Assembly (NCBI GenBank): GCA_012842565.1
Contig: DUSO01000157.1
Span: 1-41,914 of the forward strand
Length of the DNA: 41,914 nt
Direction of reading: 5' to 3'
Source: Bacillota bacterium
GTDB taxonomy: Bacteria; Bacillota; SHA-98; Ch115
The notes under the pieces are model-generated. The model was not told where the DNA came from. It did no database searches and worked only from the letters and a program-made list of their open reading frames with translations. The stretch's first letter is position 1, and each line of letters begins with the position of its first letter. A program made the position numbers and the translations under genes. Shown piece after piece: positions 2,164-7,172 of the stretch.

Positions 2164-3900
2164 ATGCTTCAGGAGCTTCATGTCTGTAATTTCGGGCTTA
2201 TCGATGACCTTGTAATAACATTTGACAAGGGGCTCAACGTGCTCACAGGGGAAACCGGGGCTGGCAAGACCATGGTAGTTGATGCCATAAGCGCCGTCCT
2301 TGGGGGGCGGATCTCCCCTGATCAGGTACGGTCCGGCGCGGATAGTTGCCTCATTGAGGCTGTCTTCTCAATTCCTCCCGAATCCCGCCTCGCAAGGCGC
2401 CTTGAGGAGGAGGGGTACGCCGTTGATCCCGACGGGCTCCTCATCCTTTCGCGTGAATTCAGCCGCCAGGCGAGATCCCGGTGCCGGATAAACGGCCGCA
2501 TTACGAACGCCGCCTCGTTATCCCAGATAGGGGCATACCTGGTGGATATCCATGGCCAGCATGAGCAACAATCCCTGCTGAAGCCCGAAAGGCAGCTGGA
2601 CCTACTGGACGCCTTCATAGGTGAAAAGGCCCTTTCTTTGAGGTCCAGGGTGGAGGAACTGGTGACAAGACTACGGGACGCAAGGCGAGAGCTTTGCCGG
2701 CTTTCGAACGAAGAAAAGGAGGCCTCCCGCAGGGCTGAGTTCTTGAGATTTCAGCAAAACGAGATACAGTCCGCGAAGCTTTCGGAGGGTGAGGAAGCGA
2801 ACCTCCTGGCCGAGAGGTCGGTGCTGGCCAGCGCAGAAAAGCTATTCTTCCATGCCACCGGGGCATACACCCTCCTTTACTCTGACGAGGCCGGGGGAGT
2901 GTCATGCCAGGAACTCATGGCAAAAGCCCTCGGCGAAGTGGAGAGCGCTGCAAAGGTAGATGCGAGGCTTGCCCCGCTGGTAGAAGTGCTGCAATCCGCC
3001 CTGGCCTCGGTCCAGCAAGTATCCAGGGACCTACGAGGCTATATAGATAAGATTGAGTTTAACCCTTCCCGGCTCTCCCTCATCGAGGAGAGGCTTGCAT
3101 TCCTGCAGGAGCTAAAACGAAAGTATGCGATGACAATCCCCGAGATCATCCAATATGGCAAGACAATCTCCCAGGAACTCGAGCACATATCCATGGGAAC
3201 GGAGAGGATAGCCCAGCTTGAACGCGAGATCCCGGAAATGACAGCAAGCCTCGGGCAACTCTGCATGGAGCTGTCCTCGCTGCGCAAGGACGCCGCCAGT
3301 GCGCTTGCAGCCAGTATCACCCGGGAGCTTGCCGGGCTCGCCATGCCCGGGGCTACCTTTCACATCAGCTTGACCTCCGTTGAAGACCCGGAAGGGGTGC
3401 CGGTAGGAGGAAGGCGAGTCCAGGTGGGCCCCAGAGGGTGCGACATGGTGGAATTCCTTGTGTCATCCAACCCGGGCGAGGCACCCCGCCCGCTGGCGAG
3501 GGTCGCGAGCGGCGGCGAACTCTCCCGGATTATGCTGGCGATTCGCGCGATCCTGGCTGAGTCTGATGAGATTCCCACCGTAATATTCGATGAGGTCGAT
3601 GCAGGAGTGGGAGGGCGGGCCGCCGCGAACGTGGCACAGAAACTCGCTGCGATCGGGCGGGCGAGGCAGACCCTTTGCGTTACGCATCTCGCGCAGATAG
3701 CGAGCGTGGGCGACGCTCATTTCTACATATCCAAGGAGGTGGTAGGGGAAAGGACCAGGTCGAAGGTGGTAAAGCTCGACAGCGAAGAGCGGGTCGTCGA
3801 GCTTGCCCGTATGCTATCCGGCGACACAATGAGCGACATAACGCTTCAGCATGCCCGGGAAATATTGAATAGCGCATACCTTCTCAAGACGGCCATCTAG
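2164..3900 (+). CDS. recN: DNA repair ATPase RecN
   Basis: SMC-like ATPase that acts early in double-strand-break repair, probably tethering DNA ends. It has 578 residues, close to the family norm. Walker A (GETGAGKT) is at 29-36, followed by VDAISAVLGGR. The middle is coiled coil rich in Leu, Glu and Arg (about 150-380). The ABC signature (ASGGELSR) and Walker B (PTVIFDEVDAGVGGR) lie in the C-terminal third, with the H-loop region TLCVTHLAQIA after them. It begins 27 bp after argR. In most spore formers spoIVB and spo0A follow recN; here an amidase fusion gene does. Confidence 0.97.
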   Translation: MLQELHVCNFGLIDDLVITFDKGLNVLTGETGAGKTMVVDAISAVLGGRISPDQVRSGADSCLIEAVFSIPPESRLARRLEEEGYAVDPDGLLILSREFSRQARSRCRINGRITNAASLSQIGAYLVDIHGQHEQQSLLKPERQLDLLDAFIGEKALSLRSRVEELVTRLRDARRELCRLSNEEKEASRRAEFLRFQQNEIQSAKLSEGEEANLLAERSVLASAEKLFFHATGAYTLLYSDEAGGVSCQELMAKALGEVESAAKVDARLAPLVEVLQSALASVQQVSRDLRGYIDKIEFNPSRLSLIEERLAFLQELKRKYAMTIPEIIQYGKTISQELEHISMGTERIAQLEREIPEMTASLGQLCMELSSLRKDAASALAASITRELAGLAMPGATFHISLTSVEDPEGVPVGGRRVQVGPRGCDMVEFLVSSNPGEAPRPLARVASGGELSRIMLAIRAILAESDEIPTVIFDEVDAGVGGRAAANVAQKLAAIGRARQTLCVTHLAQIASVGDAHFYISKEVVGERTRSKVVKLDSEERVVELARMLSGDTMSDITLQHAREILNSAYLLKTAI

Positions 3901-3931
3901 AATCTCGAGTCCCGCTACGACCAGGCAACAT

Positions 3932-3959
3932 TTGAGCCCGCATTGGAATATCCTATATT
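3932..3959 (+). promoter_or_regulatory. Candidate sigma-A promoter before the amidase fusion gene
   Basis: TTGAGC at 3932-3937, a 16-bp spacer, and TATATT at 3954-3959 resemble a sigma-A promoter (4/6 and 5/6 matches). It lies in the 104-bp gap after recN. If real, transcription starts near 3966, which supports translation from the GTG at 4005 rather than the GTG at 3960. Confidence 0.35.
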
Positions 3960-4004
3960 GTGTGCCCATTTTCACAACTTGACCTGGGTGAAAGGGGAAG
4001 CGCA

Positions 4005-5573
4005 GTGGTTAAGGGCAGGGTCACCAATGTATGGGCTTCAAGGCGTAACAATCCCGCGCTCCGGGCGACCGTCTCGGAGATTGTCGTCGAGTCACTATCC
4101 CCTCTGACCTGGCATATACGAGATAAGAGCGCCTCCAGGATCTCCGTGGAATTCCCCAATTGCGAAATCAGCCTGCCCCAGCAGAGAATATCATACTACG
4201 ACGGGGTCGTATCAGGCCTTGAGGTGAAGGACGGGGGGCAGGGGTGCGTCACCCTCACCATTCACCTCGATCGCCCGGCGGAATTGACAGTGTCCCGGGC
4301 CGGGAGCGGCTTCCCGCACCGGTGTGTACTGCAGCTTTCTCATACCCTGGTTCACGAGGTAATGAGCCACCGGGTCGTCGTGGTCGACCCGGGCCATGGA
4401 GGACATGACAAGGGTGGGCGCGGCCCGGTAAACCTCCTTGAGAAGGATGTCGTCCTGGACATCGCATACTACCTTTACAAACTCTTGAGGCAGTCGGGTG
4501 CCATCCCCGTAACCACAAGGCGCGAGGACAGGTCTATATCCATGGCCGAGCGCATAAGGATAGCTAGGACCCACCGGGCTGAAGCCATTGTAAGCGTGCA
4601 TACCCATTCCTCGTCTCACGAGAGTGTAAATGGCGCGAGGACCATCTATGATCCCAGGGCGGCTGAAAGTCAGAGACTCGCAGAGCTGATCCAGAGGGAC
4701 ATCATAAGGCGGCTCGGCATCGGTGACCGGGGCATCGGGCCCGGCGCCGTCGGCGCCGGATCCATACCCTCTTGCCAGGTAGAAGTGGTGGCCATAACCA
4801 ACTGGGTGGAAGAGGGAATGCTCAGAAGCCCTGTCTTCAAGGAGAGGGCTGCTCTTGGCATCTTCTGCGGGCTGGTTGATTTCTTCTCCGAGATTGGTCG
4901 CAGGCCGGCGCTCGCAGGCGTGGATAAGATTCCCATAAGGACGCATGTGATCTCAGAAAATGACGATATCGTGGAGGTGGTCGGGCATTATGTCAGGGAT
5001 ATTGTAAGGCCTGGCGACCTCATCTGTGTCGCCGAGAGCGTAGTTGCAATCACCCAGGGGAGGGCGGTACTCCCCAAGGATGTCCGGCCATCCATCCTCG
5101 CCAATTTCCTTTGTAAATTCCCTGGCAAGGACGGGAGCCTTGCCACTCCGCCTGCGATGCAGCTGGCCATCCAGGAGGTGGGTGCCCCACGCGTTGTCTT
5201 GGGGTCCGTCGCCGCAGGCCTGGGGCGCCTCATCGGCAGGAAGGGCGACTTTTACAGGATTGCGGGCAGGTCCCTTGCCCTGATCGACGATATCGCTGGC
5301 ACAATGCCTCCCTTTGACAAGCACGTGATCTTGGGGCCTGCTCACCCCGAGCAGGTAGCATCCAAGATCAGGGATGTCACACAAACCCACGCCCTGATTG
5401 CGGATGTAAACGACAAGGGATGTGTCGACGTGCTGGCCTGCACCGCGCCCGTCCCGGCAGAGGTGATTGAGCTGGTCCTGAGCGATAATCCTTTCGGGAA
5501 CGATGACCAGCAGACTCCCATTGTCATAGTAAGAGGGCTCCTCACAGGCGAGGGAGGCCCGGCTAAAGGGTAA
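4005..5573 (+). CDS. N-acetylmuramoyl-L-alanine amidase fused to an F420-0:gamma-glutamyl-ligase-like domain
   Basis: Three parts, numbered from the upstream in-frame GTG at 3960. About 15-130 resembles an AMIN-like beta domain. About 138-312 is an Amidase_3 zinc amidase with all expected ligand and catalytic residues: H146 in DPGHGG, E161 in LLEKD, H214 in VSVHTHS and E275 in VEVVAITN. About 325-527 resembles the CofE/F420_ligase family (PF01996), with a PGDLICVAESVVAITQGRA stretch, GRKGDFYRIAGR, IADVNDKG and a QTPIVIVRG ending. I prefer the GTG at 4005 because AAAGGGGAAG precedes it at proper spacing; the GTG at 3960 has no ribosome site and adds 15 residues. Neither start gives a signal peptide, which is odd for a wall amidase. 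It sits between recN and a SpoVB-like flippase. The domain calls are good; the substrate is unknown. Confidence 0.8.
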   Translation: MVKGRVTNVWASRRNNPALRATVSEIVVESLSPLTWHIRDKSASRISVEFPNCEISLPQQRISYYDGVVSGLEVKDGGQGCVTLTIHLDRPAELTVSRAGSGFPHRCVLQLSHTLVHEVMSHRVVVVDPGHGGHDKGGRGPVNLLEKDVVLDIAYYLYKLLRQSGAIPVTTRREDRSISMAERIRIARTHRAEAIVSVHTHSSSHESVNGARTIYDPRAAESQRLAELIQRDIIRRLGIGDRGIGPGAVGAGSIPSCQVEVVAITNWVEEGMLRSPVFKERAALGIFCGLVDFFSEIGRRPALAGVDKIPIRTHVISENDDIVEVVGHYVRDIVRPGDLICVAESVVAITQGRAVLPKDVRPSILANFLCKFPGKDGSLATPPAMQLAIQEVGAPRVVLGSVAAGLGRLIGRKGDFYRIAGRSLALIDDIAGTMPPFDKHVILGPAHPEQVASKIRDVTQTHALIADVNDKGCVDVLACTAPVPAEVIELVLSDNPFGNDDQQTPIVIVRGLLTGEGGPAKG

Positions 5574-5591: not shown

Positions 5592-7172
5592 GTGGAGCGA
5601 CAGTCCTTTCTCCGGGGGGCTATCCTCCTCACCTTCGCGGGCCTTGCAAGCAAGGTCCTGGGGGCGATATATCTCGTGCCCCTCACCCGCCTTATAGGAC
5701 CCGAGGGTGTCGGGCTCTACCAGATGTCGTACCCTATATACGGGATTATGCTCGTCCTCTCCGCCTCTGGACTCCCGGTTGCCATTTCAAAGATGGTGGC
5801 CGAAAGGGCCGCACATCACGACCATGCGGGCGCAGAGCGCGTATTCAGGGTGGCATTTTTCTTCTTGCTCCTTGCCGGCCTGGTGTTCTCCATCTTGCTC
5901 TATGGAGCCGCGGGCTTTATTGCCCGGCGCTTCCTCGGCGACCCCCGCTCTTATTATACCGTGAAGAGCATCGCCCCGGCCGTCTTTCTCGTAGCTGTGA
6001 TGTCGGCTTTCAGGGGCTATTTCCAGGGCCTTGGGACCATGCTGCCGACGGCGCTTTCCCAGCTTAGCGAGCAGGTGGTGAGGGTCGTGCTGGCGCTCGC
6101 CCTCGCTTACATCTTGCTGCCTAAAGGAGTTGAATTCTCGGCCGCCGGTTCGGCGATGGGCGCTGTGGGGGGAGCTTTGACGGGGTTTGTCGTCCTCACG
6201 GTCATCTACCTTAAGGACAAGCAATCGGGGCGTCACCCCCATCATATGGGGCATCACCCGGTGGAGAGCCATCTATCGCTCACAAAGAGCCTTCTCGCCT
6301 TTGCAATCCCTGCCACCATCGGCTCCCTTGTAGCTCCTGCCGCCGACCTGGCAAACGCCGCGATCATCCCGGCCAGGTTCCAGGCAGCCGGGCTTGACGT
6401 GCGGGAAGCCACCAGCCTCTATGGCCAGCTTGCGGCCATGGGTATGAGCCTGATCTCCTTCCCGACGGTATTCACCACGGCCTTTGCAACGAGCCTTGTA
6501 CCAGCCATCGCGGGGAGCATTAGCACAGGTGACATCATGAGCGCCAGGGCAAGGGCACAGGAGGCCATGAGATTCACCCTGATGATAGCTGTGCCATCTT
6601 TTGTGGGGCTGAGAGAGCTTGCGGCGCCCATCGCCGACCTGCTCTTCGGTTGTCCCGGGGCGGGCGCCCCTCTGGCCGTCCTGGCCCCCGGCACGGTATT
6701 CCTCTGCATACAGCAGACATCATCGGGGATACTGCAGGGCCTGGGCAAGCCTGCCCAGAGCGCGCGAAACCTCCTCATAGGGCTGGGGTCCGGTGTGGTA
6801 TTGAATTACTACCTGGCAGGAGTACCTTCTCTCACGGTGAGAGGTGCCGCCTTGGGAATCGTGGCCGGTCTTGCCATAGCATGTCTCCTCAATTTCGCCA
6901 TGGCAAGTAGGCTCTTGGGTGGCATCATTAGCACCGTCTCTACAGCCAGGGTGCTTCTGGCAAGCGTCCTCATCCAGCCGGTTATAAGGTATGCTTATTC
7001 CTACATGCTGTCCTGGTCCCCATCGAGATCTATGGCCACGGCATCCTGCATATTAGTCACAGTCATATCCTATTTCGCCATCCTTCTCCTGACCCACGAA
7101 ATAACGCCCGGCGAATTTGCGGGGCTGCCCTACATAAGCAGGCTGGTAGCCGTATTCCATCGCCGTACTTGA
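5592..7172 (+). CDS. spoVB: SpoVB/MurJ-like polysaccharide (lipid II) flippase
   Basis: Integral membrane transporter of the MATE/MOP superfamily, in the SpoVB-like group of polysaccharide biosynthesis proteins. Relatives flip lipid-linked wall precursors; SpoVB itself is needed for spore cortex. The 526 residues hold about 12-14 hydrophobic segments from residue 8 (GAILLTFAGLASKVLGAIY) to the C-terminus. The N-terminal phrase LIGPEGVGLYQM is typical of SpoVB/YtgP proteins. GTG start behind GGGAGG, 18 bp after the amidase fusion, so co-transcription of two wall-related genes is likely. A YtgP/MurJ-type vegetative role cannot be separated from a sporulation role by sequence alone. Confidence 0.85.
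   Translation: MERQSFLRGAILLTFAGLASKVLGAIYLVPLTRLIGPEGVGLYQMSYPIYGIMLVLSASGLPVAISKMVAERAAHHDHAGAERVFRVAFFFLLLAGLVFSILLYGAAGFIARRFLGDPRSYYTVKSIAPAVFLVAVMSAFRGYFQGLGTMLPTALSQLSEQVVRVVLALALAYILLPKGVEFSAAGSAMGAVGGALTGFVVLTVIYLKDKQSGRHPHHMGHHPVESHLSLTKSLLAFAIPATIGSLVAPAADLANAAIIPARFQAAGLDVREATSLYGQLAAMGMSLISFPTVFTTAFATSLVPAIAGSISTGDIMSARARAQEAMRFTLMIAVPSFVGLRELAAPIADLLFGCPGAGAPLAVLAPGTVFLCIQQTSSGILQGLGKPAQSARNLLIGLGSGVVLNYYLAGVPSLTVRGAALGIVAGLAIACLLNFAMASRLLGGIISTVSTARVLLASVLIQPVIRYAYSYMLSWSPSRSMATASCILVTVISYFAILLLTHEITPGEFAGLPYISRLVAVFHRRT

Follow-up and report, generated by a model that had tools for sequence, protein, structure and literature searches.

The window, a stretch of 41,914 nucleotides from a Bacillota bacterium, was found to carry a gene in which an AMIN-like domain, an Amidase_3 domain and a CofE-like ligase domain are joined, and which we consider a strong candidate for the still missing enzyme of polyamine attachment to the bacterial cell wall. 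We judge there to be an even chance that its product is a cytoplasmic two-headed enzyme, part polyamine ligase and part amidase, that modifies the peptidoglycan precursor before flipping. The wider proposal is more tentative, and we consider it slightly likelier to be wrong than right: that a CofE-derived family, widespread in Bacillota, polyaminates peptidoglycan precursors prior to flipping, that its cytosolic AMIN-amidase partner has become fused to it at least two times, and that it is the missing ligase of the cadaverine and putrescine walls of the Negativicutes.

Reading frame, domains and location of the fusion protein

A single open reading frame extends from 3960 to 5573 of the window with no internal stop, its first GTG lying at 3960. 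The likely start of the gene is the GTG at 4005; AAGGGG sits just 5′ of this codon, and a comparison of N-termini revealed that most homologues begin at the matching point (‘xxRITNIWSKV’). Residues are numbered from 4005 throughout. An earlier note on this DNA, made from the sequence, had given the coordinates of the gene correctly and had rightly named the four catalytic residues of the amidase, its H146, E161, H214 and E275 (counted from 3960) being H131, E146, H199 and E260 here. The fusion of Amidase_3 to PF01996 that it described was also borne out, both families exceeding their Pfam cut-offs with no stop between the domains (Table 1), though the N-terminal AMIN-like domain had been missed.

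Table 1. Coordinates of the fusion gene, its domains, its neighbours in the window and the transmembrane protein of Negativicutes loci
Feature	Position	Strand	Details
AMIN-like + Amidase_3 + CofE-like (F420_ligase) fusion gene	4005..5573	+	522 aa from GTG 4005; AF2 pLDDT 85.3
N-terminal AMIN-like beta-sandwich (about residues 1-112), no signal peptide seen	4005..4340	+	seen by fold only
Amidase_3 catalytic domain, zinc ligands H131, E146, H199, catalytic E260	4377..4874	+	PF01520 115.8 bits (Pfam cut-off 27)
CofE-like ligase domain, invariant D428, D467, N469, D470 and NPxG motif	4905..5573	+	PF01996 39.3 bits (Pfam cut-off 25)
SpoVB/MOP-superfamily flippase gene, 18 bp downstream of fusion gene	5592..7172	+	PF01943 110 bits
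recN, upstream neighbour of fusion gene, context only	2164..3900	+	PF02463
~180-aa transmembrane (TM) protein	L105:4449-4988; L087:4390-4962		homologues in L201, L209, L213-L215, L217, L225, L227, L229

The three zinc ligands of the amidase half were conserved in all 30 aligned relatives and the catalytic glutamate in 28 of these, and Foldseek searches with the AF2 model matched this half to AmiC, CwlV and AmiC2. Identity with the spore cortex amidase CwlD was rejected, as the protein scored 83.2 bits against an equivalog cut-off of 221.55. A Pfam search of the fusion protein gave no match for the N-terminal part, which is predicted to be AMIN-like by its fold only: it is all-beta in the AF2 model, and its weaker Foldseek matches included the AMIN domain of PilQ. 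The whole model (pLDDT 85) had as its best match the AMIN and amidase domains of E. coli AmiC (7e-20), with a separate match to CofE (3e-6).

Neither a signal peptide nor a transmembrane segment was seen in the fusion protein or its close amidase relatives by sequence inspection and hydropathy. In the closest amidases the first AMIN strand (‘RITNIWSKV...SRVVIEST’) stands at the very start, and a hydrophobic N-terminus is lacking. The maximal 19-residue Kyte-Doolittle score over the first 60 residues did not exceed 1.06 in AMIN-type amidases of the surveyed loci, whether fused or beside the ligase; three amidases from the same loci that do have hydrophobic N-termini scored 1.96-2.33. A secreted amidase with a mis-called start was also considered, and was rejected because the open reading frame has no hydrophobic segment upstream and relatives in many genera start alike. 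A cytosolic location, previously suggested for the window protein, thus looks conserved as judged from sequence, and the remodelling of cytosolic muropeptides that had been put forward as a role is possible for the amidase half.

The C-terminal half is a relative of the CofE-fold ligases and is not itself a CofE. An AF2 model of this domain, built from an alignment with 75 relatives (pLDDT 91.8), had CofE as its sole significant PDB match (five chains, TM about 0.65, E 2.4e-9), whilst the PF01996 match spans positions 2-132 only of the 218 in the profile. Four residues (D428, D467, N469 and D470) were invariant in the 75 relatives, and the family has motifs of its own (DD..GTMPP, DVND and DNPxGN..QTP). 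In an hhalign profile alignment, in which the A. fulgidus CofE sequence was identical to that of the PDB entry, D467 aligned with D150 of CofE; the alignment ended at CofE residue 168 of 249, with no aligned counterpart to the later part. CofE forms amide bonds via an acyl phosphate, using GTP and two Mn ions, and its long hairpin and R234 touch F420 (PMC10861534).

On a reading taken from the earlier note, the amidase would be joined to a gamma-glutamyl ligase whose substrate is F420 or a gamma-glutamyl adduct, and PF01996 membership speaks for this. The fusion protein, however, scored about a tenth of the cut-off or little more against the CofE equivalog models (24.8 bits versus 274, and 23.9 versus 180.65), the part of CofE that contacts F420 is unaligned, and a search of the window genome for CofH gave nothing above cut-off. 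The fusion gene is the only PF01996 gene in that genome. Of the F420 genes whose presence had been raised as a check, CofH thus gave a negative answer, and the one CofD-family match is uninformative, as the same family also matches in E. coli. A direct CofE role was rejected on these grounds, and we regard the F420 or gamma-glutamyl reading as very improbable; the neighbouring genes direct attention to polyamines and lipid II instead, neither of which that reading had taken into account.

Distribution and gene neighbourhoods

The fusion was also present in 15 other genomes of the window's class, and further fused genes were found in Thermanaeromonas and in Bacillota MAG-73 (locus L061). This recurrence argues that the fusion is not a sequencing or assembly artefact, nor a chance event. 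In the tree, the fused genes of the window's class formed one group (support 93/88) and that of Thermanaeromonas represented a second, separate fusion event. The two halves are separate adjoining genes in Pelotomaculum, Moorella, Ammonifex, Thermaerobacter and Limnochorda, and the amidase and ligase genes overlap by four bases in several Pelotomaculum. Two contigs labelled Deltaproteobacteria (L035) and Armatimonadetes (L044) hold amidase-ligase loci that resemble those of Desulfotomaculum/Pelotomaculum, and are probably mis-binned. The fusion is the repeated joining of a widespread pair of neighbouring genes, which suggests that the two halves act together. No report of an AMIN/Amidase_3/CofE-like architecture was found in a literature search that most subscription papers lay outside, and the earlier note likewise knew of no described system.

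The surroundings of 80 ligase genes in genomes of the phylum were surveyed, each over a 20-kb stretch or as far as the contig reached, with 60 loci in the set that includes the window's class and 20 in a divergent subfamily. The genes surveyed were mechanical open reading frames scored by BLAST to seeds from annotated loci, a procedure that may miss small or diverged neighbours. A polyamine-forming decarboxylase was encoded within 3.5 kb of the ligase in 25 of the 60 loci and at 3.5-9.5 kb in none (402 versus 613 kb searched). These 25 comprised 15 pyruvoyl arginine decarboxylases (PvlArgDC; PF01862) and ten Orn/Lys/Arg decarboxylases (OKR_DC; PF01276), two unrelated families whose assignment was confirmed on examples by Pfam/NCBIfam. 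The linked loci were spread over 11 family groups and several gene orders, the decarboxylase gene being upstream, downstream or divergent relative to the ligase, and in the tree they fell in one clade (support 100/100). Under uniform placement, the probability of all 25 lying inside 3.5 kb is about 1e-10, or about 4e-5 if the 11 family groups only are counted. The presence of PvlArgDC outside the window's class did not track that of the ligase (about 5/11 versus 9/33, scored by eye in 61 genomes), hence the polyamine argument rests on adjacency and not on co-occurrence. In the divergent subfamily, no decarboxylase, AMIN-type amidase or racemase lay near the ligase in any of its 20 loci. This F420_ligase-like subfamily (L239-L258; ‘SEKATAITQGR...PYTLPPYN’) is common in the phylum, and a MOP flippase adjoins in three instances.

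Genes of wall precursor synthesis and flipping also recurred. An AMIN-type amidase gene adjoins the ligase in about 25 of the 60 loci and is fused to it in nine more. The window flippase (TIGR02900 spore_V_B, 351 bits versus a cut-off of 372) is probably encoded in one operon with the fusion gene, and their adjacency is conserved in the class, in agreement with the tie to wall metabolism drawn previously. Flippases for lipid II are found repeatedly beside the ligase and come from unrelated families, namely Amj (PF10997, about 300 bits) in seven Desulfotomaculum-type loci and SpoVB/MOP proteins in the window's class and the OKR_DC lineages. In Moorella-type loci the distance to GatD-MurT-MurJ is 3-9 kb, and a glutamate racemase (TIGR00067, above cut-off) is encoded two genes from the ligase in many Negativicutes. 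Linkage of this kind, both to polyamine synthesis and to precursor synthesis and flipping genes, is what would be expected of a peptidoglycan polyamine ligase. The supply of D-Glu, the supply of polyamine, the flipping of lipid II and a MurNAc-L-Ala amidase point to the peptidoglycan precursor as their common compound.

Other neighbours were more variable. Many spore-formers have spoIVB-spo0A after recN; in the window recN directly precedes the fusion gene (3900-4005), and spoIVB-spo0A was not seen there. The recN and fusion genes adjoin in genomes G001-G003 and are 8-9 kb apart in family f3. Hydantoinase/oxoprolinase and histone-deacetylase-family genes accompany the ligase in Moorella and Negativicutes in differing arrangements (L053, L126 and L105:5845-8965).

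Veillonella parvula SKV38, a bacterium with a known polyaminated wall, has a homologue of the ligase (L105:5001-5651, NZ_LR778174.1), which lies near a glutamate racemase gene. The peptidoglycan of V. parvula carries putrescine or cadaverine on D-Glu; polyamine on the D-Glu alpha-carboxyl is a known wall modification of Negativicutes and tethers the outer membrane of Veillonella and Selenomonas via SLH porins (PMC10628300). No gene for peptidoglycan polyamination was found in a literature search that left most subscription journals outside its scope. The corresponding activity of Selenomonas and Veillonella is named lipid intermediate:diamine transferase. The Negativicutes ligase had no adjacent AMIN-type amidase, and matches in eight genomes never covered the AMIN-like part. 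In these organisms, a protein of about 180 residues with an N-terminal transmembrane segment (Table 1) is encoded directly before the ligase where the cytosolic amidase is absent; that of V. parvula gave no Pfam match. This protein and the cytosolic amidase never occurred together among the 60 loci, and it may be a functional stand-in for the amidase.

Proposed function and alternative explanations

The window genome contains PvlArgDC-speE-speB, and its organism is thus predicted to make polyamines. Genes for TamB-like, BamA (PF01103), OmpH-like and LpxD-like proteins were observed in the same genome (L266, contig C1:1-14000, and L262), along with a secreted SLH-coiled-coil protein that has a C-terminal TM helix and resembles an outer-membrane tether. 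From its gene content the organism looks like a diderm Bacillota, in which a wall-borne anchor would have a use, given the outer-membrane gene cluster and the SLH-coiled-coil protein. MurT is encoded in the window genome, where a GatD-like gene adjoins it, and in the three nearest relatives, whilst 13 genomes of family f3 gave no MurT match. The idea that the ligase substitutes for MurT/GatD in the window genome was rejected, as both systems are present.

In the function that we propose, the CofE-like domain would act as an NTP- and divalent-metal-dependent amide ligase, activating a carboxylate of a muramyl peptide as an acyl phosphate on UDP-MurNAc-peptide or lipid I/II; the D-Glu alpha-carboxyl is the likeliest target. 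The activated carboxylate would be coupled to an amine of agmatine, putrescine, cadaverine or spermidine, and the modified lipid II would then be flipped by the neighbouring SpoVB/MOP protein, or elsewhere by Amj or MurJ. The AMIN-like/Amidase_3 part may recognise the MurNAc-L-Ala-D-Glu region, and would either position the substrate or hydrolyse wrong or unmodified precursors. Precursor polyamination before flipping is suggested by CofE-type chemistry taken together with the known D-Glu polyamine of Negativicutes and the ligase in V. parvula.

Several points weigh against a polyamine ligase. MurT/GatD, which amidates the same D-Glu carboxyl in other bacteria, is also encoded in the window genome; the decarboxylase is not adjacent to the fusion gene in the window's class; and the amine substrate of CofE is normally glutamate and not a diamine. 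Unless it were regulated, an active amidase would break down the very substrate proposed, and the Negativicutes ligase has no AMIN-type amidase beside it. We know of no report of a polyaminated wall in most of the bacteria that carry the ligase, many of which are apparently monoderm.

The intact amidase residues and the lack of a signal peptide would also suit peptidoglycan recycling, in which an AmpD-like amidase cuts MurNAc from imported muropeptides and the ligase re-ligates or caps the peptide, polyamines being incidental; cytosolic muropeptide amidases are known in other bacteria (PMC4946905). We think this unlikely, as it leaves the linkage to decarboxylases, glutamate racemase and flippases unexplained and as Negativicutes keep the ligase with no amidase adjacent. 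The strong decarboxylase linkage, which involves two unrelated families, together with acetylpolyamine-deacetylase-like (PF00850) neighbours in Moorella and Negativicutes, would fit a ligase of polyamine metabolism whose soluble product, a glutamyl- or acyl-polyamine, would serve storage or detoxification and not the wall. A peptidoglycan amidase fused to or beside the ligase, together with the neighbours Amj, SpoVB, MurI and MurT/GatD/MurJ, renders such a role improbable. CwlM, a homologue of Amidase_3 enzymes located in the cytosol, activates MurA (PMC4946905). The fusion could be a similar regulator, one that senses precursors and controls either their synthesis or the flippase, its CofE-like domain serving as the sensor that binds nucleotide. 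The adjoining flippase gene and an Amidase_3 homologue apparently lacking a signal peptide are in keeping with this, yet we hold it to be decidedly improbable: the zinc ligands lost in some CwlM clades are invariant here, the ligase residues are likewise invariant, and the ligase occurs alone in Negativicutes.

Implications and comparison with known systems

If the polyamine ligase proposal is true, the ligase behind the polyaminated peptidoglycan of Veillonella and Selenomonas would be identified, and the tethering of the outer membrane in diderm Bacillota could be approached genetically. Such walls would exist in many more bacteria, and would be predicted in Desulfotomaculum, Moorella, Limnochorda and their relatives, whilst the ‘F420 ligase’ annotation would be corrected in bacteria that lack F420.

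The ligase domain shares with CofE and the N-terminal domain of FbiB (PF01996) its fold, an acidic residue equivalent to D150 and a probable NTP- and metal-dependent formation of amides, but the fusion lacks the F420-contacting region, has its own motifs and scores far below the CofE equivalog cut-offs. The order of an AMIN-like domain then Amidase_3, with an intact zinc site, is that of the AmiC/CwlV-type amidases, from which the window protein differs in having no signal peptide and in the CofE-like ligase fused or adjacent to the amidase. Mycobacterial CwlM is an Amidase_3 protein of the cytosol, as the fusion appears to be, and is linked to the synthesis of peptidoglycan precursors (PMC4946905), though it activates MurA and its amidase activity is not essential, whereas the fusion has invariant zinc ligands and a ligase domain. 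MurT/GatD, which amidates the D-Glu alpha-carboxyl of lipid II, resembles the fusion in the proposed carboxyl and substrate stage, but is an unrelated type of enzyme and coexists with the fusion in the window genome. The closest parallel in the proposed reaction is the D-Glu polyamination of Selenomonas and Veillonella, where the V. parvula homologue lies near glutamate racemase; the Negativicutes ligase differs in not being fused to an amidase.
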